DNA of 61,794 bases from an uncultured SAR86 cluster bacterium (lineage in GTDB: Bacteria > Pseudomonadota > Gammaproteobacteria > Magnimaribacterales > D2472), in contig CACEHH010000006.1 of NCBI GenBank assembly GCA_902559345.1, positions 1 through 61,794 of the forward strand. Reading direction: 5' to 3'. Of this stretch, positions 42,951 through 60,993 are shown piece after piece. The notes under the pieces are model-generated. The model was not told the DNA's origin, did no database searches, and worked only from the letters and a program-made list of their open reading frames with translations. A program made the translations under genes and the position numbers. How positions within the stretch are numbered: position 1 is the stretch's first letter; each line of letters begins with the position of its first letter.

Positions 42951-42960
42951 GAAGGGCCTT

Positions 42961-44661
42961 ATGTATAAAAAAATATTTTTAATTCCATTAACCTTAATTT
43001 TTTTCTATGGATGTTCAGAAAACGTCTCTCCAGTTGACTCTGCAATTGAATCTGGAATATTCCATTTTGGAAATGGATCTGAACCTCAGGGTATTGATCC
43101 TCATATTGTTACAGGTGTTCCTGAACATCATATTTTGATATCTCTATGCGAAGGGTTAACAATTGCAAACCCAAATGGTGGAGCTAATCTTCCTGGTGTT
43201 GCAGAATCTTGGACAATTAGCGAGGATGGTAAAGAGTACATCTTTTATTTAAATAAGAATGCAAAATGGTCTAATGGCGAAGTTATGACTGCTGATGATT
43301 TTGTTTGGTCTTGGATGAGAATACTTACTGCAAGCCTGGCCTCACAATACCCTGATATGCTCTACTATTTAGAAGGAGCTGAGGAATATCATAGATGGCT
43401 AAGCATAGAAGATATTAAATCCATGTTGGCAAAAGAAGAGGATCCTAAAGTCAGAGTCAATTTAGAAGAAGCTCTTTTAAACCATAAACCAAAACCTTCA
43501 TTTGATACTGTTGGGGTTAAAGCGATTGATGAACATACATTAAAAGTAAACCTAAAGAGTCCCACACCTTTTTTTCTTGGTCTATTAAGTCATTATAGTA
43601 CATGGCCTGTTCATAAGGAGACTGTATTAAAGTATGGAAAAATTGACGATAGGGATGGTAAATGGACTAGACCAGGCAATTTTGTTTGCAACGGACCATT
43701 TAAATTAAAAAATTGGGAACTTAACAGTAAAATTGTTGTAGAAAAAAATCCTCATTATTGGGATGCCTCGAAAGTCAAGTTGAACGAGATGCATTTTTAT
43801 CCAGTATCAAATGTGATGACTGAAGATAGAATGTTTAGGGCTGGCCAGCTTCATTTAACTTCAACATTACCATCTCAAAAATGTCCAATTTATATTGAAG
43901 AAAACAATCCTGATTTAAGAATTGATCCATATATGGGCCAGTATTTTTATCGTTTGAATATTAATAATCCAGCCTTGCAGGATGTAAGAGTTCGCAAGGC
44001 ATTAGCATATACAATCAACAGAAAGCTTTTAGTAGAAAAAGTTACAAAATGTGGACAAATACCAGCTTACTCATTTACTCCACCTGGTTCAAATGGATAT
44101 TATCCTGATACAGAAATACCTTTTGACCCTCAGTTGGCAAAACAGCTAATGACTGAAGCTGGATACTCTGATTCAAACCCTTTTCCAAAACTTGAAATTT
44201 TATTTAATACAAGTGAAGACCACAGAAAAATTGCTCTAGCAATTCAACAAATGTGGCAAGAAAGCTTAGGCATTGAAGTAGAATTAGTTAATCAAGATTG
44301 GAAAGTTTATCTTGGTAGGGAGATGGTTGGAGATTTTCAAGTTTCTAGAGCAGGATGGATAGGTGACTACGAAGATCCAAATACTTTTTTAGATTTGATG
44401 CGTCCAAATAGGGGCAATAATAAGACTGGCTGGGAAGATGCAGCCTATGACGAAATTATGCAAAAAGCAAACTCTACAAATAATCAAGAAGAAAGATATA
44501 AGCTATTAAACCAAGCTGAGAAAATACTTATTGATAATATGCCAATAATTCCTTTATATACTTACGTAAGAGCTTATCAATTATCTTCAGATGTTAAAGG
44601 ATATAATCCTCATATTTTAGACCACCACCATCCAAAATTTATTTACTTAGAAAGAGATTAA
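42961..44661 (+). CDS. oppA: Oligopeptide-type ABC transporter substrate-binding lipoprotein
   Basis: Family 5 extracellular solute-binding protein, 566 residues. The ATG at 42961 (Shine-Dalgarno GGAAGGG) gives a lipoprotein signal with lipobox FYGC (C18). Family motifs include GSEPQGIDPHIVTGVPEHHIL, AESWTISEDGKEYIFYLNKNAKWSNGE, DVRVRKALAYTINRKLLV and DWKVYLGREMVGDFQVSRAGWIGDYEDPNTFLDL. The last of these resembles peptide-binding OppA/MppA. The ligand is probably a peptide, possibly a murein peptide (inference). Two permease genes follow at 6 nt and 4-bp overlap, with no ATPase genes. Confidence 0.87.
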   Translation: MYKKIFLIPLTLIFFYGCSENVSPVDSAIESGIFHFGNGSEPQGIDPHIVTGVPEHHILISLCEGLTIANPNGGANLPGVAESWTISEDGKEYIFYLNKNAKWSNGEVMTADDFVWSWMRILTASLASQYPDMLYYLEGAEEYHRWLSIEDIKSMLAKEEDPKVRVNLEEALLNHKPKPSFDTVGVKAIDEHTLKVNLKSPTPFFLGLLSHYSTWPVHKETVLKYGKIDDRDGKWTRPGNFVCNGPFKLKNWELNSKIVVEKNPHYWDASKVKLNEMHFYPVSNVMTEDRMFRAGQLHLTSTLPSQKCPIYIEENNPDLRIDPYMGQYFYRLNINNPALQDVRVRKALAYTINRKLLVEKVTKCGQIPAYSFTPPGSNGYYPDTEIPFDPQLAKQLMTEAGYSDSNPFPKLEILFNTSEDHRKIALAIQQMWQESLGIEVELVNQDWKVYLGREMVGDFQVSRAGWIGDYEDPNTFLDLMRPNRGNNKTGWEDAAYDEIMQKANSTNNQEERYKLLNQAEKILIDNMPIIPLYTYVRAYQLSSDVKGYNPHILDHHHPKFIYLERD

Positions 44662-44667
44662 TTTCGC

Positions 44668-45591
44668 ATGCTAGCGATTTTTATTAAAAGAATATTATTA
44701 GTAATACCAGTTCTATTTGCAGTTGCAAGTATTACATTCTTTTTAATTAAATTAGCTCCTGGTGGGCCTTTTGATGCTGATAAAGCTGTATCACCTCAAG
44801 TTTTAAAAAATTTAAATGAAGCATATAACTTGGATGCTTCAAATTGGGAACAGTATGTGGATTATATGTCTAATCTTGCACAGGGAGATTTAGGACCCTC
44901 TTTTAGATTTCCAGGCAGATCTGTGACTGAGATGATTACCACAGGGCTTCCTGTTACTTTTGAATTAGCATTTTATGCAATATTAATTGCGCTTGTTATG
45001 GGAGTATTTTCAGGCGTTTTAGCAGCTCTAAAAAGAAATACATTTCTAGATTTTATTCCTATGGCCATAGCTATGATAGGCATATGTGTTCCAACATTTT
45101 TAATGGGACCATTATTGGTATTAATTTTTGGTATTAATTTAGAAATTCTTCCTGTTTCAGGTTGGGGGCAGTTACCTGGGGATAAAATTTTACCTTCTCT
45201 TACTCTTGGTTTTGCATATGCTGCATATATAGCAAGATTAAGCAGGGGTGGCATGTTAGAAGTATTAAATCAAGACTTTATAAGAACAGCTAGAGCAAAG
45301 GGCTTAACAGAAAAGATGGTGGTTATTAAACATGCCATGCAAGGAGGATTAATACCGGTTGTTTCTTTCTTAGGTCCTGCAATTGCTGGCCTTCTTGCAG
45401 GCTCTTTTGTAGTTGAAACAATTTTTCAGATTCCTGGACTAGGAAGGTTTTATGTTGAGGCAGCATTCAATAGAGACTATACAATGATTTTAGGCACAAC
45501 AATTTTCTTTTCAGCAATGATTGTTTTCTTTAATCTCTTATCAGATCTTGCTGCATTATGGTTAAACCCGAGATCAAGGGATGCATCATGA
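44668..45591 (+). CDS. oppB: ABC transporter permease, OppB type
   Basis: 307 residues with six membrane helices. The N-terminus IKRILLVIPVLFAVASITFFLIKLAPGGPFD is characteristic of DppB/OppB. The cytoplasmic EAA loop is DFIRTARAKGLTEKMVVIKHAMQGGLIPVV, and PGLGRFYVEAAFNRDYTM follows. It pairs with the OppC-like permease, which overlaps its stop by ATGA, and with the binding protein upstream. Confidence 0.9.
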   Translation: MLAIFIKRILLVIPVLFAVASITFFLIKLAPGGPFDADKAVSPQVLKNLNEAYNLDASNWEQYVDYMSNLAQGDLGPSFRFPGRSVTEMITTGLPVTFELAFYAILIALVMGVFSGVLAALKRNTFLDFIPMAIAMIGICVPTFLMGPLLVLIFGINLEILPVSGWGQLPGDKILPSLTLGFAYAAYIARLSRGGMLEVLNQDFIRTARAKGLTEKMVVIKHAMQGGLIPVVSFLGPAIAGLLAGSFVVETIFQIPGLGRFYVEAAFNRDYTMILGTTIFFSAMIVFFNLLSDLAALWLNPRSRDAS

Positions 45592-46436
45592 ATAATTCCC
45601 TTTGGTCAGATGCAATTTATAGACTTGCTCGAAATAAAGCAGCCATGCTAGGCGCTTTTATACTTATCTTATTAATAATTGCAGCTGTACTTGCGCCATG
45701 GATTTCACCCTATTCCTATTCATATCAGGATTTGAACCTTGGAGCGAGCCCTCCATCTGCAGATCATTTATTAGGTACTGATATCTTAGGTAGAGATTTA
45801 TTAAGTAGAATTTTATATGGAGCAAGAATTTCGCTATTAGTTGGTTTTGTTGCAACAGGTGTAGCTTTGGTTATTGGAGTTTCTTGGGGAATTATTGCAG
45901 GTTATTCAGGTGGTAAGGTTGATTCAATAATGATGAGAATCGTCGATGTTTTATATGGATTACCTTTTATCATATTTATTATTCTTTTAATGGTTATTTT
46001 TGGGAGAAACCTTTGGCTGCTATTTGGAGCCATTGGTGCTGTTGAATGGTTAACAATGGCTAGAATTGTAAGAGGGCAAGTAATTGGATTAAAAAATCAA
46101 GAATTTGTTATGGCTGCAAAAGCAATGGGAGTCTCCAATTTAGCCATGTTTAGGAGGCATTTATTACCGAATATATTAGGACCAATTGCAGTGTATGCAA
46201 CCCTAACAATTCCTCAAGTTATGCTTTTAGAAGGCTTTCTAAGCTTTTTAGGTCTAGGCATACAACCACCAATGAGTAGTTGGGGCACTTTAATAAAAGA
46301 TGGAGTAGAATCAATGGAAGAATACAGTTGGTTATTAATTTATCCTGGATTAACTTTTACGATAACTCTATTTGCACTGAACTTTTTTGGAGATGGGCTT
46401 AGAGATGCGCTTGATCCAAAGACTACTGATAATTAA
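45588..46436 (+). CDS. oppC: ABC transporter permease, OppC type
   Basis: 282 residues. The ATG at 45588 overlaps the oppB stop (ATGA) and gives MNNSLWSDAIYRLARNKAAMLGAF, the usual OppC N-terminus. It has GTDILGRDLLSRILYGARISLLVG, the EAA loop EFVMAAKAMGVSNLAMFRRHLLPNI and SFLGLGIQPPMSSWGTLI. It ends the locus and overlaps the opposing mltD by 4 bp. No oppD or oppF follows, so the energising ATPases must be encoded elsewhere. Confidence 0.9.
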   Translation: MNNSLWSDAIYRLARNKAAMLGAFILILLIIAAVLAPWISPYSYSYQDLNLGASPPSADHLLGTDILGRDLLSRILYGARISLLVGFVATGVALVIGVSWGIIAGYSGGKVDSIMMRIVDVLYGLPFIIFIILLMVIFGRNLWLLFGAIGAVEWLTMARIVRGQVIGLKNQEFVMAAKAMGVSNLAMFRRHLLPNILGPIAVYATLTIPQVMLLEGFLSFLGLGIQPPMSSWGTLIKDGVESMEEYSWLLIYPGLTFTITLFALNFFGDGLRDALDPKTTDN

Positions 46437-47911
46437 AAAGCCCTAATAGCTATCTTTATTATTTGACCTGGCATTAAAGTTTCATTATTAAACTCATTAA
46501 TCTCTATAATGCTTTTTATCGTTACATCAAATAAATCTGAGATTTTGTATAAATTATCCCCCTGTTTAACTGAGTAGAGTATTGTTCTTTTTTTTGATTC
46601 GATATTTCTATGGATATTCTTATTGCCAATAGTTAATTGTTGCCCTAATTGTAAGAAGGAATTTTCATTTATTGAATTCATTTTTGCTAGATCTGATACC
46701 TCAAGATTATAAGTTCTTGCAATATCCCACAATGTATCTCCCTCAGAAACAATATGCATTTCATAAGGTATAAAATTATTTGATTCTGTTTTACTTAATG
46801 GAATGAGAAGGGTTGTGCCAATTGATAGGGCATCAGTATTTAGATAGTTGATTTCTTTAATAATTTTTACTTCTGTATCATATTTATTTGCTAGCGCCCA
46901 AAGACTATCTCCTGATTCAACTATATGTGAAATCCAATTGATTTGATTTGCATCTCTAAATGGATTCTCAAGAGATTCAAATAAATAATACTTTTCAACT
47001 GGAATATAAAAAATACTTTGATCTTTTGGTGCAGAAGCCCATTTTGTATAACCGGCATTTAATTTATATAGTAGCTCAGGCTTAACATCTAAAAATTCAC
47101 TTAAAGTTAGAACTTCTACTTGGCCTCCAATAGAAATTTTTTGAACTATTGGCTCATTAGGTATTTCTGGAAGTTGAATATCATATTTATCAGGATTAAA
47201 AACTAATTCCCTTAATGCTATATATTTTGGGACATATTCTTTGGTCTGACTAGGTAAATTAAGAGACCAAAAATCTACTTCTAAACCGCGTCTTTTATTT
47301 TGATTAATTCTTCTTTCTAAAAGAGTAGGCCCTGCATTGTATGCTGCCAATGTTAGATAAATATCATTATCAAATCTTTCATATAAATACTTTAAATAAC
47401 TTACAGCAGCTTCAGTTGATCGGAAGGGGTCATGTCTGTCTTCATTCCACCATGTTTTATTAAGTTCAAACAATCTACCTGTTTTAGGCATAAACTGCCA
47501 CATTCCAACTGCTCCAGAAGAGGATATTGAAAAAGGGTCATAATTGCTCTCTATATATGGTATTAAAGATAATTCTAGAGGTAGTCCTTCTTTTTCAAGT
47601 TCGTTTATAACAAAATATAAAAAATAATATGAATCATTAAGATATTCTTTAAACTTATCAGTATCTTTTATATGTGTATTCATATAATAAAGAACTTGCT
47701 CATTGATGAGTTCATCATGGGTTGTTAAATTATTTGCTAATAAATAATCCCATATATTTTTGTATGTATCTGCAGAATTATCTGCAGGTATTTGATAATC
47801 TTCTTTGGGTAAAGGCGTGAATAGTTCTTTATCTTTTTCAACAATAGCTATTTGCTGACAACCAACTAGAATTAAAGAAATTAAAAATTTTATTAAAAAT
47901 TGTCTTTCCAT
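46433..47911 (-). CDS. mltD: Membrane-bound lytic murein transglycosylase D
   Basis: A peptidoglycan-cleaving lipoprotein of 492 residues with a lipobox LVGC (C18). The SLT catalytic domain (about 100-240) has the catalytic Glu E121 in LIPYIESNYDPFSISSSGAVGMWQFMPKTGR. Three C-terminal LysM domains follow (HIVESGDSLWALANKY, HIVSEGDTLWDIARTY, YSVKQGDNLYKISDLF), one more than the two found in E. coli MltD. Its start overlaps the gloB end by 19 bp, so gloB and mltD are one unit. Confidence 0.93.
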   Translation of the reverse strand: MERQFLIKFLISLILVGCQQIAIVEKDKELFTPLPKEDYQIPADNSADTYKNIWDYLLANNLTTHDELINEQVLYYMNTHIKDTDKFKEYLNDSYYFLYFVINELEKEGLPLELSLIPYIESNYDPFSISSSGAVGMWQFMPKTGRLFELNKTWWNEDRHDPFRSTEAAVSYLKYLYERFDNDIYLTLAAYNAGPTLLERRINQNKRRGLEVDFWSLNLPSQTKEYVPKYIALRELVFNPDKYDIQLPEIPNEPIVQKISIGGQVEVLTLSEFLDVKPELLYKLNAGYTKWASAPKDQSIFYIPVEKYYLFESLENPFRDANQINWISHIVESGDSLWALANKYDTEVKIIKEINYLNTDALSIGTTLLIPLSKTESNNFIPYEMHIVSEGDTLWDIARTYNLEVSDLAKMNSINENSFLQLGQQLTIGNKNIHRNIESKKRTILYSVKQGDNLYKISDLFDVTIKSIIEINEFNNETLMPGQIIKIAIRAF

Positions 47912-51235: not shown

Positions 51236-51266
51236 TTGGACATAATCTCTTAGGAAAGCCTATAAT
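51236..51266 (+). promoter_or_regulatory. Candidate promoter of the TonB-dependent receptor gene
   Basis: A perfect TATAAT (51261-51266) is preceded by TTGGAC 19 bases upstream (18 from TGGACA). It lies about 37 bases before the receptor ATG, within the 76-bp spacer after gltX. The spacing is slightly long. Confidence 0.5.
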
Positions 51267-51302: not shown

Positions 51303-54230
51303 ATGAAAAATATAAATTATTTACTTTCTATAATGTTATTGTTGCCTTTTGCAGCAATTGCACAAGATAGTTCTGATGATTCTGAAGAAAATGTTGAAGA
51401 AGTTGTTGTTGTAGGTTCGCAGATTAAAGGCGCATCTATTACTGGAGCTCTTCCTGTTACTGTAATTTCGTCTGAAGACATTGATCTTTTAGGTGTTGAA
51501 GATGGAACAGAATTATTAGAAAACATGACAGAACAAGGCCTTAACTATTTTACAGAGGCTGAATCTGATTCAGGTGGTGTTAACTCAGCTAGAGGTGACG
51601 TAGGTGCTTACAATATTAGAAATATGGGTGTTGGTAATACGTTAATACTTTTAAATGGAAGAAGACTTGTTAATAACGCAGGTTATCAAACTGAATTACT
51701 TGGTGGAGACTATGTTCCAACAATGAGTGTTAACTCAAATCTAATTCCAACAAGCGGCCTTGATCGTGTTGAGGTTCTAAAAGACGGAGCTTCTGCTATT
51801 TATGGTGCAGACGCAGTTGCTGGTGTTGTAAATAATGTTTTACAAAGTGATTTTGATGGATTTGAAATAGCTCTAAGAAATCAAGGTTATGATAACTTTA
51901 GTGCAGTAGATGACAGATTAACCCTCAAATGGGGTAAAGATATGAATGGCGGCAAGACAAATGTTTCTGTTATGTATGATTTTTATGACAGAGATGGCAT
52001 TGCTGCAGCTGAGGATCCAAGATGGGGTGATTCAGATCATAGAAAATGGATACCTGCTGACTCACTATGGGCAGGAGATACCTCATTTAGAAATCTTTAT
52101 TCAGGAAAGTGGGCTCAATTAGATATGCGGGGAAGAACTGATTATTCAGATAGCTCTGGTGAGATTCAAATTATCCCAATTGGAGATCCAAGATGCGCAA
52201 GATCTGATTCAAAAGATACTGGCTATGGTACATGTTTAGCAGTTGATACAACTACAATGGCTAATGGTGAATACTATATTAATCCAGGCCAATTTAGAGA
52301 TTACAGAGGTGAGTTAGAGAGAAGTAACTTATTTGTATTTGTGAATCATGAATTAGATGGCGGTACAGAATTTTTTGCAGAAATCGGTTCATACAATTCA
52401 GACTATATGAGACATAAAGAACCAGCAGGTGATTTTAGTACTGCACTTTTAAGCGTTGGGCCTGATAACTACTGGATGAATCAAATTGGTATGACTGCCG
52501 ATAACTCTTCTTCAAATAAGCAAGTAAGAATTGATAACTGGAGACCAGATATTGGACCAAGAATAATTAATGTAGAAAAAGAAACATATAGATATCTATT
52601 TGGTTTTAGAGGAACTACTGATTCAGGCTGGGATTGGGAAACAGCTGTTTTGCATTCCAAAGCTACATCAGAAGATTTAACTGAAAATAGATTATCAAAT
52701 TCTTTATTGCAAGCTGGTTTAAATGATTCTACACCAAATGCAATTAATATATTTTCTGCAGACGTTAAAACTGCTTTATCTCAAGCAATTGTTGATGTTT
52801 CAAGAAATGATACTAGTGAATTAAATTCATTTGATTTCAAAATGACAAATCCTGAAGTCTTTAATTTACCAGCTGGGCCTGTAGGTATGTTAGTTGGTTT
52901 TGAATATCGTTCTGAATCATACACAGATGATAGAGATCCTAGATTAGATGGATCAATTCAGTTTACTTCAAATGAGACTGGATTAGGATTCCCATTTGTT
53001 GGAGATGTTCTTGGATCAAGTCCAACGGTTGATACTTCAGCCAAAAGAGCAACAAATTCAGTTTTTGCTGAAATGATATTACCGATTTCAAGCAAAATGG
53101 AAGCACAAGTTGCTATGAGACATGAAGACCCTGATGATACTAAGTCATCTACAGTTTGGAAGGCAGCTTTGGGCTGGGAATTAACTGATGATGTTCTACT
53201 AAGAGGTTCAAAATCGACTTCATTTAGAGTTCCAAACCTTATACAGGCTAATCAGCTTTATGTTACAAGAAGTGGTAACGTTGATGATGCAGTTGGTGAG
53301 TATGTTGGAGCAAATGACCCACTAGATGATAGATATCAAATTCAAAGTTATAGAACTGGTAATCCAGATTTGCTTCCTGAGGAATCTGATAACACTTCAT
53401 GGGGATTTGTATGGACACCAAGTAATATTGAAGGTCTTACAATCACATGGGATGATTGGAGAATAGAAAAAGACAATACAATTGTTTTATTTGGTAGAAC
53501 CAACGCAATGGTGGCTGATCTTGTTGCTAGAATTAATTATGGTGCTGAAAATTGTGATGGTTATAGCAACCCTGCAATATTAAGAGATGATGGTGGATAT
53601 TCTGCAGCTGAAATAGCTAAGTTTACTGCAGCTGGAATTTGTCCTGCTGGAGAGGCTTTAAGTATATTTGATGAATATACTAATGCAGCTACAAGATCTA
53701 TTGCTGGTCAAGACATTGGTATTTATTATGATCTAACTACAGAAGTTGGTGATTTCAATATCACACTTAATCATTCTGAAACAACTGAATTTACCCAAAA
53801 GCCAACAAATGCTTATCAAGCATTGGTTGATGCTCAAGAATCTGGAGTAATACCTTTTGATATTACTTTTGCGGGTTTTGGTAATCTAGCTGGATTAGAT
53901 GGTAACTATGTTGAAAAAACTAGTCTTAAGTTTAACTATAGAGTTGGTGATTTAGGAGTCCAATTATCTGGACTTAAAAAAGGTGACTTCTATCAAAGTA
54001 GTGAAACTAGGTCTGATGGAACAAGATATGTTATACCAAGCATGACAACTATAAATGCATCAGTTTATTACTGGTTTAATGTTGGTGACAACAAAGCTAG
54101 AGTTAAATTTGCAGTTAAAAACATAGAAGATGAAAGAGCACCATTAGCTGATAGATTCTATGGTTTCTTTGCAGATGCTCATCAAGACTATGGTAGAAAC
54201 TTTTATCTTGATATAAAGGTTAAGTTTTAA
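51303..54230 (+). CDS. TonB-dependent outer-membrane receptor
   Basis: A 975-residue ligand-gated outer-membrane channel. The signal peptide covers about 1-20 (PFAAIAQ), and an acidic linker leads to a TonB-box-like EEVVVVGSQI. The plug domain (about 45-180: PVTVISSEDID, GAYNIRNMGVGNTLILLNGRRLVNN, LDRVEVLKDGASAIYGADAVAGVVN) precedes a 22-strand-type barrel ending in aromatic KVKF. The type resembles large oligomer or peptide receptors more than siderophore receptors; the ligand is unknown. It has its own promoter and terminator. Next to it lie an anion transporter, a gamma-glutamyltransferase and an M20 hydrolase. Confidence 0.93.
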   Translation: MKNINYLLSIMLLLPFAAIAQDSSDDSEENVEEVVVVGSQIKGASITGALPVTVISSEDIDLLGVEDGTELLENMTEQGLNYFTEAESDSGGVNSARGDVGAYNIRNMGVGNTLILLNGRRLVNNAGYQTELLGGDYVPTMSVNSNLIPTSGLDRVEVLKDGASAIYGADAVAGVVNNVLQSDFDGFEIALRNQGYDNFSAVDDRLTLKWGKDMNGGKTNVSVMYDFYDRDGIAAAEDPRWGDSDHRKWIPADSLWAGDTSFRNLYSGKWAQLDMRGRTDYSDSSGEIQIIPIGDPRCARSDSKDTGYGTCLAVDTTTMANGEYYINPGQFRDYRGELERSNLFVFVNHELDGGTEFFAEIGSYNSDYMRHKEPAGDFSTALLSVGPDNYWMNQIGMTADNSSSNKQVRIDNWRPDIGPRIINVEKETYRYLFGFRGTTDSGWDWETAVLHSKATSEDLTENRLSNSLLQAGLNDSTPNAINIFSADVKTALSQAIVDVSRNDTSELNSFDFKMTNPEVFNLPAGPVGMLVGFEYRSESYTDDRDPRLDGSIQFTSNETGLGFPFVGDVLGSSPTVDTSAKRATNSVFAEMILPISSKMEAQVAMRHEDPDDTKSSTVWKAALGWELTDDVLLRGSKSTSFRVPNLIQANQLYVTRSGNVDDAVGEYVGANDPLDDRYQIQSYRTGNPDLLPEESDNTSWGFVWTPSNIEGLTITWDDWRIEKDNTIVLFGRTNAMVADLVARINYGAENCDGYSNPAILRDDGGYSAAEIAKFTAAGICPAGEALSIFDEYTNAATRSIAGQDIGIYYDLTTEVGDFNITLNHSETTEFTQKPTNAYQALVDAQESGVIPFDITFAGFGNLAGLDGNYVEKTSLKFNYRVGDLGVQLSGLKKGDFYQSSETRSDGTRYVIPSMTTINASVYYWFNVGDNKARVKFAVKNIEDERAPLADRFYGFFADAHQDYGRNFYLDIKVKF

Positions 54231-54247
54231 TCAAATCAAAAATAATA

Positions 54248-54273
54248 AAGGGAGTTAATTACTCCCTTTTTTT
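54248..54273 (+). terminator. Intrinsic terminator after the TonB receptor gene
   Basis: A stem GGGAGT/ACTCCC with loop TAATT, flanked by A's and a run of seven T's. It makes the receptor a single-gene transcript, with the transporter starting 23 bp later. Confidence 0.88.
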
Positions 54274-54296
54274 ATGAAAAAATATTAGTATAAGAT

Positions 54297-55799
54297 ATGC
54301 CAGCATACAAAAATAAAGGTTTTTTTATAGGCTTGATAGTATTTATCTTGATAGTTGTATGTGGAATTAATGATTTCATACCAGCTAGCTTAAGTGCATT
54401 AGATGGTGAATCATTTGAAACTAATAAAGGTACTCAAGTTATAAACAGCCAATCTGCATGGTTTGTTTTTGCAGTACTAATTTTGATGGCCATCTGGTGG
54501 GCAACTGAAGCATTGCCTGTTGCTGTAACCTCTTTACTTCCTCTAGCATTATTTCCTTTATTAGATGTAGTCAATTTTCAATCTGCTGCTAATCCATATG
54601 CCAATAAAAATATATATTTATTTCTTGGAGGTTTTATATTAGCACTAGGTATAGAAAACTCTGGACTTCATAAAAGGATGGCTCTTCGAATGATAATTGC
54701 AATTGGATCAAGTGGTGCAAAATTAATTGGGGGCTTTATGCTTGTTGCAGCATTGGTAAGTATGTTTGTTATGAATACTTCTACAACTTTAATGTTACTA
54801 CCTATTGGTTTGGCTGTTTGTACTGTTATTGCCTCAACAATTCCAAATATAACAGAACAACAAAGAAAATATTTTGATACTGCTTTATTGATAGGCATTG
54901 CTTATGCAGCAACTATTGGTGGAATGTCAACGATTATAGGAACAGCACCAAATTTAGTTTTTGTAACATTTATGAGTGAACAATATGGAATTGAAATAGA
55001 TTTTTTAAGTTGGATGAAGTTAGGCGTGCCTGTAGCATTTGTAATGTTAATATCTGCATGGTTTATCCTAACAAAATTTGTTTTTCCAACAAACTTTATA
55101 GCAACATCAGAAACAAAATCAAAATTAAATCAAATGCTCTCAGATCTAGGGCCTTTAAATAAAGATGAGATCAAAATATCAATAATTTTTGGTTTTGCTG
55201 TTTTAGCATGGATGACAAGTAGAGTGATAAGAGATAATTTTGGAATTGGTATAGAGGATGCCGGAGTAGCAATTATAGTAGCAATATTGTTATTTATGAT
55301 TCCGTCTTCAATAAATAAAAACATGGATTTAATGCAATGGGATAAAACAACGAAATTGCCATGGGGTCTTCTAATACTTTTCGGCGGAGGACTATCTTTA
55401 GCTGCACAAGTTTCCAATACAGGTTTGGGTATATGGATAGGTCAAGGACTTACTGTATTAAAACTTGTCCATCCGATTATTCTTGTTTTAGCAATAGCAA
55501 CCATGATAATTTTTCTAACTGAAATGACCAGTAATGTTGCAACAACAAGTACATTTCTACCTGTTATTGGGGCTTTAGCAATTGCAATTGGTGTAGTTCC
55601 AGTTTCTCTAACAATTCCAGTCTGTCTTGCAGCCAGTTGTGCATTTATGTTACCTGTTGCCACACCTCCAAATGCAATTGTTTACGGTTCTGGAAAATTT
55701 ACTATTGCAACAATGATGAAAGCAGGATTTTTCTTAAATTTAGTTGGTATATTAGTAGTAACGTTATTTTCTTATTATCTTGCACCTGTGGTTTTTTAA
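54297..55799 (+). CDS. DASS/SLC13-family sodium:anion symporter
   Basis: A 500-residue inner-membrane carrier with about 11-12 helices. Duplicated family motifs are FVMNTSTTLMLLPIGLAV with GGMSTIIGTAPNLVFV, and TEMTSNVATTSTFLPVIGALA with MLPVATPPNAIVYGSG. The SNT/TNT-like pairs correspond to sodium and carboxylate sites, so a di- or tricarboxylate is the best guess; aspartate or glutamate-like anions are possible. Unlike the transporter at 5365 it has no TrkA-C insert. The gamma-glutamyltransferase gene follows its stop with no gap. Confidence 0.9.
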   Translation: MPAYKNKGFFIGLIVFILIVVCGINDFIPASLSALDGESFETNKGTQVINSQSAWFVFAVLILMAIWWATEALPVAVTSLLPLALFPLLDVVNFQSAANPYANKNIYLFLGGFILALGIENSGLHKRMALRMIIAIGSSGAKLIGGFMLVAALVSMFVMNTSTTLMLLPIGLAVCTVIASTIPNITEQQRKYFDTALLIGIAYAATIGGMSTIIGTAPNLVFVTFMSEQYGIEIDFLSWMKLGVPVAFVMLISAWFILTKFVFPTNFIATSETKSKLNQMLSDLGPLNKDEIKISIIFGFAVLAWMTSRVIRDNFGIGIEDAGVAIIVAILLFMIPSSINKNMDLMQWDKTTKLPWGLLILFGGGLSLAAQVSNTGLGIWIGQGLTVLKLVHPIILVLAIATMIIFLTEMTSNVATTSTFLPVIGALAIAIGVVPVSLTIPVCLAASCAFMLPVATPPNAIVYGSGKFTIATMMKAGFFLNLVGILVVTLFSYYLAPVVF

Positions 55800-57530
55800 A
55801 TGAAATTTCTTAGTTTATTAATTTTTATCTCATTTAGCACTTTTGCTCAACAAAGCTATATCGATTATGTTTCTCCTTATCATCCTGTTGTTGGGAAATC
55901 AGGTATGGTCGTATCTCAAAATAATCTTTCTTCAGATATAGGGATTGAAATATTAAATAAAGGAGGAAATGCAGTTGATGCTGCAGTAGCCGTTGGCTTT
56001 TCTTTAGCTATTACATTGCCTAGAGCTGGAAATCTTGGAGGTGGGGGATTCATGCTTGTTTACCTAAAAGAAAGAGATGAAATTTTCTACATTGATTATA
56101 GAAGTAAGTCTCCTTTGAATGCATCGATTGATAATATTTTTGATTTAAATGGAAAAACTATTAAGCCAAAAGATTTTACAAACGATATGTTTAATAAAAC
56201 AAGATATGGATATAAAGCACCAGCGATTCCTGGAACTGTAGCTGGTTTATTAGAGGCTCATGAAAATTTTGGTAAATTGCCTTTAGAAGAAGTCCTGGCT
56301 CCAGCAATAAGACAAGCAAGAGAGGGCATAACAGTTTCTTATGATCTTGAAAAAGCAATCGATGATACTCATCAATTAAAAAAAGACCCTGAATCATTAA
56401 AAATTTATTTTAAAGATGGAGTAGCTATCAAAGAAAATTCACTATTTAAAAGACCTGATTTAGAGAATACATTCCAACTAATAGCTTCTAACGGTAAAGA
56501 GGGCTTTTACGAAGGTGATATCGCAAAAGAAATAGTTAAATCAATGAATGAAAATGGTGGATTGTTTACATTAGAGGATCTTAAAAATTATAAACCACAA
56601 ATTAGTGAACCAATTGTTGCCTCATATAGAGGAAATTTAGTTTTTACTGCTGGGCCTCCATCAGGAGGAGGTATAACTCTTTTAACAGCTTTAAACATTC
56701 TTAGCGCTTTTGATTTAAAAAAGTTTAATAGCGATTCTGCTATTACATACCACCTTACCTCTGAGGCCTTAAGAAGAGGCCATAATAATAGATCTCATTT
56801 TGTGGGTGATCCTGATTATTTTGATGTTCCTGTAACTCAACTATTATCTAAAGAAAGAACTATGGAGCTTGCAAAAAGTATTGATATTAAAAAAGCTACA
56901 AAATCTACGGTGGTTAAACCTTTAGAGTTAATTAATGAAAGTCGTGATACAACACATTTTTCGATTATTGATAAAGAAGGTAATGCTGTATCAAACACAT
57001 ATACGCTTGGTTATTCTTTTGGCTCAGGGGTAACGATTCCTAACACAGGTATATTAATGAATAACCAAATGAATAACTTTGCTTACAGATATGGAGATAA
57101 AAACATTAGAGGTCGTTCAGCAAGTACAGGTAATAGATTTGAACCTGGAAAGAGTCCAATGAGCACAATGGCTCCAACTATGGTTTTTAATGAGGAGGGT
57201 AATCTTATATTGATAACAGGTTCACCAGGTGGATCTTTAATACCTGCTGCAATACTAAGAGTTATCACAGGAGTAATTGATTTTGATTTAGATATAGGTC
57301 AAGCAACAATGCTACCTAGAGTTCATAAAGATTGGCCAACTACTGGTATTTTATATGAGACAACATTAAATTCTGATGTTGTTAGAATTATTAATAAAAC
57401 TATTGGTCATAAAATGACGCCAGAACACACAATGGGTAGTACGCAAAGTATTCATATTATTAATGGCACTAACTATGGTTTTGCTGATCTTAGAAGACCA
57501 AATGCATCAGTATCAATTCAATCTAATTAA
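55800..57530 (+). CDS. ggt: Gamma-glutamyltransferase
   Basis: A periplasmic Ntn-hydrolase that splits gamma-glutamyl bonds in glutathione and related compounds; 576 residues (E. coli 580). It has a signal peptide (1-16) and GNAVDAAVAVGFSLAITLP and GNLGGGGFMLVY. The autoprocessing/nucleophile Thr is T384 in SRDTTHFSIIDKEGNAVSNTYTL, with GKSPMSTMAPTMVFNEEG and ITGSPGGSLIP in the small subunit. It directly abuts the DASS carrier, so released glutamate or the remaining anion could be imported by that carrier. The 3' end overlaps the opposing M20 gene by 8 bp. Confidence 0.94.
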   Translation: MKFLSLLIFISFSTFAQQSYIDYVSPYHPVVGKSGMVVSQNNLSSDIGIEILNKGGNAVDAAVAVGFSLAITLPRAGNLGGGGFMLVYLKERDEIFYIDYRSKSPLNASIDNIFDLNGKTIKPKDFTNDMFNKTRYGYKAPAIPGTVAGLLEAHENFGKLPLEEVLAPAIRQAREGITVSYDLEKAIDDTHQLKKDPESLKIYFKDGVAIKENSLFKRPDLENTFQLIASNGKEGFYEGDIAKEIVKSMNENGGLFTLEDLKNYKPQISEPIVASYRGNLVFTAGPPSGGGITLLTALNILSAFDLKKFNSDSAITYHLTSEALRRGHNNRSHFVGDPDYFDVPVTQLLSKERTMELAKSIDIKKATKSTVVKPLELINESRDTTHFSIIDKEGNAVSNTYTLGYSFGSGVTIPNTGILMNNQMNNFAYRYGDKNIRGRSASTGNRFEPGKSPMSTMAPTMVFNEEGNLILITGSPGGSLIPAAILRVITGVIDFDLDIGQATMLPRVHKDWPTTGILYETTLNSDVVRIINKTIGHKMTPEHTMGSTQSIHIINGTNYGFADLRRPNASVSIQSN

Positions 57531-58968
57531 CTTTTCTATAGTCTAACGGAGGTTTTCTATCTCCCAGCAAAGGCTTGTATTCAAAATCCTCACCAACACG
57601 TGATTTGAGTTCATTTTTTGAATCTTCAATAATCGATGGATTGGAAAAGATATCTGTAGCGCTTTTTGCTAAAGTTTTTGCTGCTAGTTCTGCACCTTTA
57701 AGTCCAATTGAGGTTCCTCCTGATGCTACTGCTTGCCAGGAGTGAGATGCAGTTCCTGGGACCCATGTAGCTGTCCTTAATCCAGCTGTTGGAACATTCC
57801 AACTAACATCTCCAACATCGGTAGATCCGTAGCCATGAGAGGTTTTAAAAGGTCTTACGTTTTCTTGAGATCCAATCTTAATATCAGGCTCGATAAAGGT
57901 TGAGTATATTTCCGAGGCATATTCATTTTCTTTATCGTCATATTTTATACCACCAAGATTATTTAAATTATTATGAACAATTTTTTGCAATGTATCATTT
58001 GGTAGCAATGAAAAGTTTCCATGCATTACTTCATAACTCATTTGAGTATCAGTGCCTAAAGCAGCTCCATTAGCAGTATTTACAACTCTCATAAATAAAT
58101 CTTCAACTATAGACATTTCTGGATGCCTTACGTAGTAATAAACTTCTGCAATGTCAGGAACAACATTTGGAGCAAGACCTCCTTTGGTTATAACGTAATG
58201 TATTCTTGATTCTTGTGGTATATGTTCTCTCATCATATTTACCATATGATTCATAGCCTCAACTCCATCAAGGGCTGATCTTCCTTGTTCTGGAGATCCT
58301 GCAGCATGTGCTGATATACCTCTAAAAGTAAATTTAGCTGATTTATTTGAATTAGATGTTCTTGAGTTTGCACTATTAGAGTCATCAGGATGCCAATGCA
58401 ATACAACATCAACATCATTAAATAAACCTTCTCTCACCATGTAAACTTTACCAGAACCTCCTTCTTCAGCTGGAGTTCCATAAAATCTTATAGTCCCAGG
58501 TACATTATTCTCAACAAGCCATTCTTTAATAGCTACAGCTGCCCAGGCTGAAGCAGCTCCAAATAGATGGTGACCGCAAGCATGTCCTGCACCTGTTTCA
58601 TTATTTTTAATTTCTTTAAATGGAGAAGTTGTTTGTGCCAGTCCAGGCAAAGCATCAAACTCACCAAGAATTCCAATGATTGGACCGCCATTATTAAATT
58701 CAGCAATAAAAGCAGTTGGTATGCCGCCCAATCCTTTGTTAATAACAAAACCCTCATCCTGAAGTGATTTTGCTAGTAAATTAGAACTTTGATCTTCTTG
58801 ATAACCTAATTCAGCATATTCCCATATTTCTAATGCAACATTTTCAAACTTTACCTTATGGTTTTCTATACTATTTAAAATATCATCACTAAAAATATTA
58901 TTAGTTAATAAAATTAAAACTAGTGCACTAATCGATTTTCTTTGAAATAAATTTTTCTTTTTACCCAT
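57523..58968 (-). CDS. Exported M20 amidohydrolase, AbgB-like
   Basis: A zinc peptidase/amidohydrolase of 481 residues. The metal-binding pattern is GEFDALPG (D104), GAGHACGHH (C131, H133), PAEEGGSGK (E168/E169) and VVLHWHPDD; HGYGSTDVGDVSWNVPTAG and PGTASHSWQAVASG near the C-terminus match p-aminobenzoyl-glutamate hydrolase subunit B (AbgB). Unlike cytoplasmic AbgB it begins with a signal-like segment (KSISALVLILLTNNIFSDD), implying periplasmic action. The ATG lies 49 bp inside the upstream thiolase-like gene. The substrate is probably an aminoacyl-glutamate or similar amide (inference). Confidence 0.84.
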   Translation of the reverse strand: MGKKKNLFQRKSISALVLILLTNNIFSDDILNSIENHKVKFENVALEIWEYAELGYQEDQSSNLLAKSLQDEGFVINKGLGGIPTAFIAEFNNGGPIIGILGEFDALPGLAQTTSPFKEIKNNETGAGHACGHHLFGAASAWAAVAIKEWLVENNVPGTIRFYGTPAEEGGSGKVYMVREGLFNDVDVVLHWHPDDSNSANSRTSNSNKSAKFTFRGISAHAAGSPEQGRSALDGVEAMNHMVNMMREHIPQESRIHYVITKGGLAPNVVPDIAEVYYYVRHPEMSIVEDLFMRVVNTANGAALGTDTQMSYEVMHGNFSLLPNDTLQKIVHNNLNNLGGIKYDDKENEYASEIYSTFIEPDIKIGSQENVRPFKTSHGYGSTDVGDVSWNVPTAGLRTATWVPGTASHSWQAVASGGTSIGLKGAELAAKTLAKSATDIFSNPSIIEDSKNELKSRVGEDFEYKPLLGDRKPPLDYRKVN

Positions 58969-60365
58969 TCTTCACTCTCCATAGATTTAATAATAGATTT
59001 ATCAGAAGAAGTAATCAATTTTCTTCCGCCATCTTCACAATCTATATATATTATTGCTTTAGGATTTTTATTATAAATTGTTGTATATCCAATTATCTTG
59101 CCATAACCTTCATTTATTGAGGAAATTTCAACTGGAACTTCATAACAACTGGCCTCATTAGTAAAATCTTTATGTAAAAATTCAATGATAGGGTTTTTTG
59201 CCCATAGCGCGAAGGACTGTTTGGTCATCATTCCAGACACACCAGTTACAATACCTATATTATTACTTTCTTCTCTAATTCTTGAAATCGTTTTAATTGT
59301 TGAGTGAATAACATAGCTATTTAATGGTCCCCCTGCGAATGACATACCGCCTGTTATTGTCATGTCTTTAGGTTTCTTCACATTAAGAAGCCTTGAAAAC
59401 ATCTGAACAGCAACTGGAAAACAACTATAGAGGTCAAAAATATTAGGTTTTATGTTATAAGAATCACATATTTGTAATATAAAATCTGATGCCATTTTCA
59501 TTCCATATGGCTCTATAAGGTTTGGTCTTTGAAGGGTTGCAACCATATGGTTGTTTTCACTTGAGGCAAGTGGATAGACTCTCTTTTCGGTTGGTATATT
59601 TAATTTATTAGCTATATCTTCTGAACAGATTATCAATGCGCATGATTGATTAACATTCCAACTACTACAATGTAATTTGTTATATGGAAATGCTTGTAAT
59701 GGATTTTCTTTACTTTGATTTAGGATTTGTTCAGCCTTTATAGGCTTGTCAATCCAAGATTCATTATTTTGAGAAGCTATTTTTGAAAACTCAGAATACA
59801 TTTCTGATATATTTTTATGATGAGTATCAAAATTGATATTTAATGAAGAGCGAAGGGCACTTTCTAAAACCCCATAATATCCAACAGCCATTAGCCCAAG
59901 AGCATTCTCTTCTATTTTTAGATGAAGGTCATCCTTTGCTTTTACATAATGATCAGGATTGTTAGTTAACTCTGTTTCAATATATTCTTTTTTTTCAATA
60001 TGACTTCTAATTAATTTATATCTAGCCTCTCCCCCAAGAATTAAGCCTGCACGTATCTCACCATTAAGAATTTTGTTACATGTTGAGTTAATTAAATTTT
60101 GTTGAAGAACACCTATCTTTGTAACACTTGTTTTGACATCTTTAATTTGATTATTTTCCGCAATCCATCTTGCTGGATCCCTATATCGCCAATATCCTTT
60201 AGGGACTTGTATCTCATCAATATAATTTTTAATTTCAGTTTTTGTTGAATCAGCTATTGCTTTTTTAAAGGCTTTATCCATAAGAATAAGCGCTTCGTCT
60301 AATTCGTCAAACCCACCTTTTTGTTGAATGGTTCCAATCCCAACTACAACCGGATTGTTTTTCAT
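58920..60365 (-). CDS. Thiolase-like acetyl-CoA acetyltransferase family protein
   Basis: 481 residues from the ATG at 60365; an in-frame Met at 60404 lies inside the methyltransferase gene. The thiolase fold is recognised by AGLILGGEA, the family-specific MTITGGMSFAGGPLNSYVIHS and FDLYSCFPVAVQMF. The usual N-terminal nucleophile context (N..C.SG) is not visible; that region reads GVLQQNLINSTCNKIL. It therefore belongs to the atypical SCP2/OB-tailed thiolase group, possibly acting in steroid or fatty-acid side-chain chemistry or non-catalytically. It ends with a short OB-like C-terminal domain and lies 4 nt after the methyltransferase. Confidence 0.75.
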   Translation of the reverse strand: MKNNPVVVGIGTIQQKGGFDELDEALILMDKAFKKAIADSTKTEIKNYIDEIQVPKGYWRYRDPARWIAENNQIKDVKTSVTKIGVLQQNLINSTCNKILNGEIRAGLILGGEARYKLIRSHIEKKEYIETELTNNPDHYVKAKDDLHLKIEENALGLMAVGYYGVLESALRSSLNINFDTHHKNISEMYSEFSKIASQNNESWIDKPIKAEQILNQSKENPLQAFPYNKLHCSSWNVNQSCALIICSEDIANKLNIPTEKRVYPLASSENNHMVATLQRPNLIEPYGMKMASDFILQICDSYNIKPNIFDLYSCFPVAVQMFSRLLNVKKPKDMTITGGMSFAGGPLNSYVIHSTIKTISRIREESNNIGIVTGVSGMMTKQSFALWAKNPIIEFLHKDFTNEASCYEVPVEISSINEGYGKIIGYTTIYNKNPKAIIYIDCEDGGRKLITSSDKSIIKSMESEEWVKRKIYFKENRLVH

Positions 60366-60369
60366 AGTC

Positions 60370-60993
60370 TTATATCGAAGCTGTACCCCAATAGTTGTAA
60401 CCAACTATCTTTGGAGTGCTTGGCAGATACATTTGTTCAAGATTATGAATTTTAAATCCTGAATCAGATAAAATATTAGGTATATCTCTATTTATGTTAC
60501 AACCACCAAATATCTTACTCCAAAGAGGATTAACTCTATTTTGCCATTTGGTTACTTTTAAGTCTGGTGCAATGCCATGTTCACAAAATTCTATAGTTGC
60601 ATCTGACTTCATCACTCTTTTAATTTCTTTAAGTGATTCTTTGAGCTCACTTATAGAACATAAAGTATATGTTATTAAGACAGTATCAATAGATTTAGAT
60701 TTTATTTTAATTTCTTCTGCGCCATTAATTAAGAAATCAATTTCTACGTCATAATGATTTGCATTTTTAAGCGCTAGATCACATAACTCTTCAGAAGGAT
60801 CAAGTCCATATATTTTATTAATGTTTGAAAGGTTGTAATAGGGAATATTTAAGCCTGAACCAATACCTATCTCTAAAACAGTTCCTGATGCATTAGGAAC
60901 AACTTTATTTCTTTGATAATTGATTGGTTTTGTTGAGCAACATGTATCTAATAATTTAGGTAGAACATATTTCTCATAAGCTTTTTTGATCAT
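60370..60993 (-). CDS. Class I SAM-dependent methyltransferase
   Basis: 207 residues. The SAM-binding motif I is [15 protein letters not shown], with acidic [12 protein letters not shown] after beta-2 and [27 protein letters not shown] as post-motif. The end [33 protein letters not shown] resembles the METTL7/UbiE-like group that methylates small thiols, quinones or lipids. The substrate is unknown. Its start overlaps the fabI stop by 4 bp (ATGA). Confidence 0.82.

Follow-up and report, generated by a model that had tools for sequence, protein, structure and literature searches.

What would a bacterium of the surface ocean take up and dismantle with a TonB-dependent outer-membrane receptor, a DASS carboxylate carrier, an enzyme of the gamma-glutamyltransferase (GGT) family and an AbgB-like M20 amidohydrolase encoded side by side? 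The four genes lie on a 61,794-nt stretch of DNA (the window; contig CACEHH010000006.1, positions 1 to 61,794) of an uncultured SAR86 cluster bacterium, from an assembly (GCA_902559345.1) of 0.92 Mb that is 72% complete. SAR86 bacteria are among the most abundant in the surface ocean and many details of their life are unknown (PMC11582366). We consider it close to an even chance, on the lower side, that the four genes serve to scavenge nutrients from glutamate compounds with a blocked amino group (R-CO-NH-Glu, in many cases a gamma-amide); we infer the following substrate class, order of steps and DASS cargo. The receptor would carry into the periplasm a compound that porins could not supply because of its size or scarcity. 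The GGT-family enzyme, with a pocket that would no longer grip a free alpha-amino group and a lid gate that would stand open, would hydrolyse the gamma-amide of a glutamate whose amino group is blocked or missing (N-acyl-Glu-gamma-X or glutaryl-X). Next, the M20 enzyme, AbgB-like and putatively exported, would hydrolyse the N-acyl bond to release glutamate and an acyl acid, and the DASS carrier would take up the resulting di- or tricarboxylate.

The argument turns on the GGT-family enzyme. It has a 39% identity to the Escherichia coli enzyme (EcGGT, whose numbering is used here) and keeps R114, T391, T409, Q430, S462 and the oxyanion glycines (483, 484), with the changes N411G, D432N, D433N, Y444R and S463T. 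The first-pass annotation, made from the window sequence, had reported an intact nucleophile at T384, and this residue aligns with EcGGT T391. A total of 122 SAR86 and neighbour rows besides EcGGT were aligned and sorted by identity to the window GGT, a sorting independent of residues 411 and 433, by which typing would be circular. All 103 rows with at least 42.7% identity (window included; 74 distinct small subunits, some rows being the same gene in overlapping loci) had Gly at 411 and Asn at 433, with an aromatic residue at 444 present in 2 and absent in 101. All 17 paralogue rows (38–42% identity), two of which lie in clusters of the SAR86 family f3, kept N411, D433 and the aromatic residue at 444 and had Glu at 430. 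Two sequences below 31% identity (L150, L161) fit neither type. Two loci of one genome (L056, L079; both G053) also carried K114, T462 and N463, and Arg114 was kept in the remaining SAR86 rows. A search of the 107 genomes of the window's SAR86 family gave a canonical paralogue in 78 (E 1e-150), with N411 and D433 in all 15 that were fetched (e.g., L203-L217); no such paralogue was found at this threshold in the window's own genome. Outside SAR86, a sample of 369 Gammaproteobacteria gave ten GGT loci at E 1e-130, eight of them with N411 and D433. The two without the canonical pair belong to a single genome (G340): one (G411, T433, K444) lies in an M20 operon (L240) described below, and the other (L239, contig C42; M411, N433, F444) has no receptor or M20 match beside it.

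A standard GGT requires the free alpha-amino group of its substrate and so could not open folyl- or p-aminobenzoyl (pABA)-polyglutamates. The first-pass annotation had taken the enzyme for a standard remover of free gamma-glutamyl groups, which is unlikely given the changed alpha-amino pocket, where two of the three residues holding a free alpha-amino group are replaced (N411G, D433N). The cluster GGT, usually read as a glutathione enzyme, probably does something else, and the predicted alteration of its alpha-amino pocket is a new finding against the ordinary GGT reading. By family profile, catalytic Thr, second Thr and oxyanion glycines the cluster enzyme agrees with GGT, and by its alpha-amino ligands it does not; its Asn at position 433 agrees with the sequence definition of the class IV cephalosporin acylases, which have Asn at this position (PMC8062742). 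The Bacillus subtilis residues matching the altered sites hold the alpha-amino group of bound glutamate, and N411 and Y444 of EcGGT form a lid gate (PMC8062742). The EcGGT D433N variant lost transpeptidation, kept 82% of hydrolysis and gained acylase activity on glutaryl-7-aminocephalosporanic acid, an activity 50-fold enhanced in D433N/Y444A/G484A (PMC8062742). A 2024 paper cites the same D433N result and used a GGT variant as a glutaryl amidase (PMC11421214).

Alignment of the M20 enzyme with the E. coli proteins gave 40% identity for AbgB (455 columns) and 26% for AbgA (313 columns). Its metal ligands (C131, H133, E168/E169, H193, H409), described as intact by the first-pass annotation, were kept in 130 of 130 aligned homologues with one X at H133. 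A hydrophobic N-terminal extension that is absent from E. coli AbgB was present in 128 of the 130, the exceptions being one row cut by a contig start and one just below threshold. The claim that both enzymes carry signal peptides agrees with this extension and, for the GGT, with an N-terminus judged by eye. The E. coli pABA-glutamate hydrolase (PGH) is cytoplasmic, and the export-type N-terminus of the SAR86 M20 suggests a different location. No AbgA partner was found among the genes adjoining the locus, the search having covered the neighbourhood and not the rest of the genome; the AbgA matches in loci L122-L201, among the matches listed, fall on the M20 gene itself. Solved relatives included HmrA, an Xaa-Arg dipeptidase, YxeP, an aminobenzoyl-glutamate utilization protein, an acyl-glutamine aminoacylase and an IAA-amino acid hydrolase. 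Among the best 80 of 96 matches, the nearest named relatives (up to 87% identical) were mostly from SAR86 cluster bacteria and those at about 51–60% were from Bacteroidota, Gemmatimonadota, Verrucomicrobiota and other Gammaproteobacteria; relatives on sphingomonad plasmids were 53–55% identical. In the window, the start of M20, with its signal-like N-terminus, overlaps the 3′ end of a thiolase-like gene (49 bp, 58920-58968), and in a locus that lacks this gene (L085) the length of M20 is unchanged.

The receptor has both plug and barrel domains. Its structure, which the first-pass annotation had proposed to predict, was modelled with a mean confidence score (pLDDT) of 73; the model gave no clue to the ligand, the top fold matches being generic siderophore, B12 and other receptors at 10–14% identity, and this route was abandoned. 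The best solved relatives of the DASS carrier were NaCT (259 bits), NaDC1 (254), NaDC3 (219), VcINDY-type NadC (up to 217) and SLC13A1 (213). Receptor genes seem to have been swapped between lineages: in two loci (L081, L082; genomes G061, G076) the receptor is 93% identical to that of the window, compared with only 66% for DASS, 73% for GGT and 74% for GltX. The reverse pattern was seen in another (L099; GGT 81%, DASS 86%, receptor 40%).

In the window, the receptor, DASS and GGT genes are co-directional; 66 bp separate the first two, and DASS abuts GGT (0 bp). The GGT and M20 genes lie tail to tail with an 8-bp overlap, M20 being the last gene of a minus-strand row fabI-methyltransferase-thiolase-like-M20. 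Each window protein was searched in the 107 family genomes, most of them incomplete. Cluster-type GGT was found in 86 genomes (3 fragments; weaker matches in G013, G016, G079, G089 and G105 were left untyped), M20 in 71 (one a 67-residue end fragment), DASS matches in 87 (E 1e-60) and receptor matches in 81 (E 1e-100). GGT and M20 occurred together in 69 genomes, on the same contig in 65 and on separate contigs in 4, and M20 occurred without cluster GGT in two (G016, G018; the M20 of G018 is 310 bp from a contig end). The resulting table (69/2/17/19) gave a Fisher P of 2e-9, a value inflated by genome kinship and by contig gaps, through which neighbours are lost together. All 65 same-contig pairs were within 6.5 kb, 40 tail to tail (-2 to +14 bp) and 25 co-directional at 4.6–6.4 kb, with the receptor and DASS genes filling the gap in mapped loci. 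Of the 86 genomes with cluster GGT, 79 carry DASS on the same strand as GGT and no more than 0.81 kb from it, and 3 gave no DASS match; the receptor is on that strand at up to 2.4 kb in 69, 7 have it on a separate contig and 10 gave no receptor match at threshold.

Gene order was mapped in 40 loci chosen for their matches. One order, in genera g1, g6 and g9, was gltX, receptor, DASS and GGT, followed on the opposite strand by M20, thiolase-like gene, methyltransferase and fabI; g2 and g8 were alike except for the lack of DASS. The other, in g3, was fabI, thiolase-like gene, M20, receptor, DASS and GGT, with gltX opposed; g5 and g7 were alike with no fabI in the stretch. The two orders differ by a single inversion, that of the receptor-DASS-GGT block, with the flanks unchanged, and so do not represent independent gatherings of M20. 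Recurrence across the family in these two orders indicates that the four-gene grouping is more than chance. The first-pass annotation had held that the genes belong together, and comparison of synteny across relatives bore this out, the lack of co-occurrence that it named as contrary evidence not being observed. Its caution that M20 is on the opposite strand stands for the window, where M20 is on the minus strand downstream of fabI, and is weakened by the 25 co-directional genomes, in which co-direction stems from inversion of the other genes and not from a new gathering. The methyltransferase and thiolase-like genes were variably present among the mapped loci, and in three (L079, L085, L088) M20 was retained beside the block with the thiolase-like gene gone. 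Some genera have a LysR regulator gene divergent from the receptor gene (Pfam-supported in L062 and L087), an exported-looking hydrolase without a Pfam match between receptor and DASS, or an EthD protein after GGT. The LysR protein was rejected as an AbgR orthologue, having a 25% identity over 141 columns only. Single copies with disrupted frames were also seen: a cluster GGT split into two open reading frames (ORFs; L090, G087), perhaps by a frameshift or an assembly error, an M20 with one internal TGA (G202:C1:96131-97531) and a GGT with one internal TAA (G198:C7:9688-11367).

The f3 clusters give stronger support for linkage than the two inversion-related orders, and those of family f4 weaker support. 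A GGT was near M20 in four of five mapped f3 loci. Two of them (L103, L105) contain M20, receptor, DASS and two GGTs, one per pocket type, in a different arrangement, and one (L106) has M20 without GGT, DASS or receptor. An S51 peptidase gene adjoins M20 in four of the five (L102, L104, L105, L106; not L103), for example at L105:8332-9027 and L102:3450-4151, and beta-lactamase-like and SDR genes are nearby in some. In f4, a receptor gene of a different, distant kind lies some kb from M20 in four of the six mapped loci.

The pairing of M20 with a receptor recurs outside SAR86. 66 non-SAR86 M20 loci were scanned with receptor, GGT and carrier queries, and the composition of those with a receptor was read by Pfam. 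A same-strand receptor gene was less than 200 bp upstream of M20 in five (L176, L191, L242, L243, L244), and within 3.4 kb upstream in nine (adding L173, L179, L194, L240). Two Opitutaceae operons consist of receptor, M20 and N-formylglutamate amidohydrolase, followed by AbgT (605 bits; L191, where the last two genes overlap by 4 bp) or a DcuC carrier (L176). Plasmids of Novosphingobium and Sphingobium (L243, L244) encode receptor, M20 and a Na+:dicarboxylate symporter. In L242, receptor and M20 are followed by a GGDEF-EAL gene, and in L173, L179 and L194 an exported M14 carboxypeptidase is encoded between receptor and M20. The gammaproteobacterial operon L240 consists of receptor, the altered GGT, a TAXI binding protein, M20 and a creatininase-family protein; two genes further downstream, considered as a TRAP permease, were assigned by Pfam to a histidine kinase and a sigma-54 regulator, which ruled the permease out. 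Plasmid M20 loci of Ketogulonicigenium, Hymenobacter and Massilia had no receptor, GGT or carrier match beside M20 with the queries used. On a quick M20 tree, with f4 loci, L106 and L161 scored as not linked, the receptor-linked state required 6 changes, at least 5 of them forced by well-supported branches (shuffled mean 18), indicating that the receptor link arose or was lost several times. Joining the L240 GGT to the SAR86 clade was not rejected by an approximately unbiased (AU) test (P = 0.48), and a convergent pocket change was therefore set aside.

As a shared thread, several of these operons point to N-acylated glutamate, through N-formylglutamate amidohydrolase (two loci), AbgT (one) and the AbgB-like M20. 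The same operons contain organic-acid carriers or binding proteins, and SAR86 and L240 add a GGT-family enzyme with an altered alpha-amino pocket. From this shared thread and the altered pocket comes the proposed order of receptor, gamma-amide cleavage, N-acyl removal and acid uptake. The first-pass interpretation is supported in part: the linkage in relatives and the operons of M20, receptor and carrier elsewhere speak for it, and the standard GGT role does not stand. A more specific proposal is possible but somewhat doubtful, namely that the SAR86 enzyme, of a type at present annotated for glutathione, is a natural amidase of the GGT family for N-acyl-gamma-glutamyl (or glutaryl) compounds, partnered by the exported AbgB-like hydrolase in an acylglutamate pathway fed through TonB; other Gammaproteobacteria, Sphingomonadaceae and Verrucomicrobiota would have versions of the module with interchangeable carriers.

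A number of results weigh against scavenging of N-blocked glutamates. Within the family, 17 genomes have the GGT with no M20 match, and eight mapped loci keep GGT and DASS without M20 (L093, L114-L119, L121). DASS is separable, lying 330 kb from GGT in G053 and on another contig in G001, G042 and G106. In f4, the receptor-DASS-GGT block stands beside gltX without M20 (L113, L120), and in all six mapped M20 loci (L107-L112) the gene is found away from the block, with neither GGT nor DASS. Outside SAR86, 57 of the 66 M20 loci have no such receptor, a count in which SusC-type receptors of Bacteroidota could escape the queries; a carrier beside M20 was not identified in L173, L179, L194 and L242, and the altered GGT of L240 may share its origin with that of SAR86. 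As for the enzymes, D433N EcGGT still hydrolyses ordinary gamma-glutamyl donors (PMC8062742), and the glutaryl-amidase GGT variant is slow on most alpha-amino-acid glutaryl conjugates (PMC11421214), and this counts against an amino acid in the gamma-linked position. E. coli PGH is an AbgA/AbgB heterotetramer (PMC5082436) and needs AbgA, which was not seen beside the SAR86 locus.

Four alternatives were weighed, given here in descending order of probability. Under the main reading, folate breakdown products, pABA-Glu with a gamma-linked tail, fit the proposed chemistry, and folate-derived pABA-(gamma-Glu)n is a leading candidate substrate, which would be a source of carbon and nitrogen and not serve folate synthesis. 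FolP (dihydropteroate synthase, TIGR01496) and FolC (TIGR01499) were above cut-off in 0 of the 107 genomes, with controls passed in 12 of 14 and 11 of 14 cases, respectively. Ten weak FolP matches, all in frames of 813-1246 aa, are presumably MetH, and of the sub-cut-off FolC matches listed, most lie in frames of about 400-520 aa that we take for Mur ligases. PabB gave no match above cut-off in a weak test that only 4 of 14 controls passed. With FolP and FolC above cut-off nowhere, freed pABA is unlikely to feed folate synthesis, and pABA salvage for this purpose was rejected. The same result makes the window's family a likely folate auxotroph, dependent on outside folate. The medium that yielded a cultured SAR86 isolate contained folic acid and 4-aminobenzoic acid (PMC11582366). 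That the locus is a folate-fragment unit, with pABA-glutamates or folyl-polyglutamates as its natural substrate, is nevertheless unlikely: the AbgB-like enzyme, the fit of an N-blocked gamma-glutamyl chain to the altered pocket and the presence of AbgT with N-formylglutamate amidohydrolase in the L191 operon point that way, whereas the absence of FolP and FolC matches above cut-off, the lack of AbgT or another known folate carrier among the locus genes and the weak cleavage of folic acid by E. coli PGH (PMC5082436) point away.

Scavenging of glutathione or other gamma-glutamyl peptides, in which GGT would free glutamate and the hydrolase split the rest for use of sulfur and glutamate, is rather unlikely. 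It draws on membership of the GGT family (TIGR00066), on the 82% hydrolysis kept by the D433N enzyme and on a comparison of SAR86 genomes in which ggt and pepB are read as a route from glutathione to cysteine and a sulfur source, the two GGT types not being separated (PMC11582366). However, every row near the window GGT has the altered alpha-amino pocket, most of the family's genomes have a canonical paralogue, and the M20 is of the AbgB type, E. coli PGH having failed on a range of dipeptides (PMC5082436).

The gamma-D-Glu of peptidoglycan is N-acylated, and the locus could in principle serve peptidoglycan or other gamma-linked peptide fragments (L-Ala-gamma-D-Glu-X) dismantled by a set of periplasmic peptidases, which we regard as improbable. 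The window encodes peptide-importer-like ABC proteins and an SLT/LysM transglycosylase upstream of the locus, an M14 carboxypeptidase is present in three operons outside SAR86 and an S51 peptidase in most mapped f3 loci. The transglycosylase and importer genes, however, lie beyond gltX, dnaQ, rnhA and gloB and stay put when the block is inverted against gltX, and the N-formylglutamate amidohydrolase, AbgT and dicarboxylate carriers elsewhere point to free acyl-glutamates. Finally, that M20 is a chance neighbour working with the fabI-methyltransferase-thiolase unit, the receptor, DASS and GGT forming a separate system, is more improbable still, for although M20 shares 49 bp with the thiolase-like gene, remains with the fabI unit when the block is inverted and is apart from the block in f4, it is kept beside the block in loci that lack the thiolase-like gene and is found with GGT and receptor in L103, L105 and L240 with no fabI match in the stretch.

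The coordinates of the locus are given in Table 1. The four genes had been reported as contiguous by the first-pass annotation; their ORFs were recovered at the same positions and all are above curated family cut-offs. The evidence for a promoter and a hairpin at the receptor gene is weak, neither class exceeding its shuffled count: promoter-like sites in the region numbered 21 (shuffled mean 35.9), the support for this one being its position and near-consensus match only, and hairpins numbered 4 (shuffled mean 3.8). Upstream of gltX, the window has the peptide-importer-like ABC genes (42937-46436, plus strand) and the SLT transglycosylase with LysM domains (46433-47911, minus strand). A tRNA-Arg(CCG) called by ARAGORN at 22063-22153 (minus strand), without Rfam confirmation, overlaps a long ORF.

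Table 1. Positions of the locus features in the window.
Feature	Position	Strand	Basis or remark
Sigma-70-like promoter, TGGACA-18-TATAAT, 11/12 consensus match	51237..51266	+	ahead of receptor gene
TonB-dependent outer-membrane receptor (TBDT), 975 aa	51303..54230	+	Pfam PF00593 and PF07715 above cut-off
Terminator-like hairpin, receptor/carrier intergenic	54247..54269	+	attenuation possible
DASS sodium-coupled carboxylate carrier, 500 aa	54297..55799	+	TIGR00785, 285.5 bits (cut-off 198.6)
Putatively exported GGT-family Ntn hydrolase, altered alpha-amino pocket, 576 aa	55800..57530	+	TIGR00066, 472.6 bits (cut-off 357.85)
T384 codon, nucleophile and small-subunit start (EcGGT T391)	56949..56951	+	alignment
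G404 codon (EcGGT N411 to Gly)	57009..57011	+	alignment
N426 codon (EcGGT D433 to Asn)	57075..57077	+	alignment
R437 codon (EcGGT lid-gate Y444 to Arg)	57108..57110	+	alignment
Putatively exported AbgB-like M20D amidohydrolase, 481 aa	57523..58968	-	TIGR01891, 246.4 bits (cut-off 153.75)
Thiolase-like context gene upstream of M20, 49-bp overlap with M20 start	58920..60404	-	ORF list, profile search

In the literature consulted on TonB-linked AbgB/AbgT systems, SAR86 GGT and a SAR86 folate requirement, which covered few subscription papers and some sources in part, no description of this locus was found. With canonical GGT split from the pocket-altered cluster type, the published glutathione reading can be tested for each gene separately; the split also suggests that acylated glutamates are a class of dissolved organic nitrogen that has gone unrecognised. 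The plasmid operons of Novosphingobium and Sphingobium offer cultured hosts for a substrate search, and the likely folate requirement of the family is relevant to culturing SAR86.

Compared with known systems, the locus resembles a GGT-family amidase combined with AbgB, and by its predicted features it departs from a canonical GGT in the pocket and from PGH in location, with no AbgA nearby. It shares with the E. coli abgR-abgABT system an AbgB-like M20 and a LysR gene, set divergently to the operon (E. coli) or to the receptor gene (some SAR86 genera), and AbgT itself occurs in the Opitutaceae relative L191. It differs in the export-type N-terminus of M20, in the lack of a neighbouring AbgA, in having DASS instead of AbgT and in the addition of a TonB receptor and a GGT-family enzyme. 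The SAR86 carrier is full length and above the family cut-off, like the DASS/SLC13 carriers NaCT, NaDC and VcINDY, but has what we judge to be unusual genomic partners. The cluster GGT shares with canonical EcGGT the nucleophile Thr, the oxyanion Gly-Gly and, except in two SAR86 rows, the Arg114 equivalent, and differs in the alpha-amino ligands 411 and 433 and the lid gate 444. With the class IV cephalosporin acylases and D433N-type GGTs it shares Asn in place of EcGGT D433, whereas the SAR86 change is natural and clade-wide, is accompanied by N411G and loss of the lid gate, and lies inside an uptake locus.

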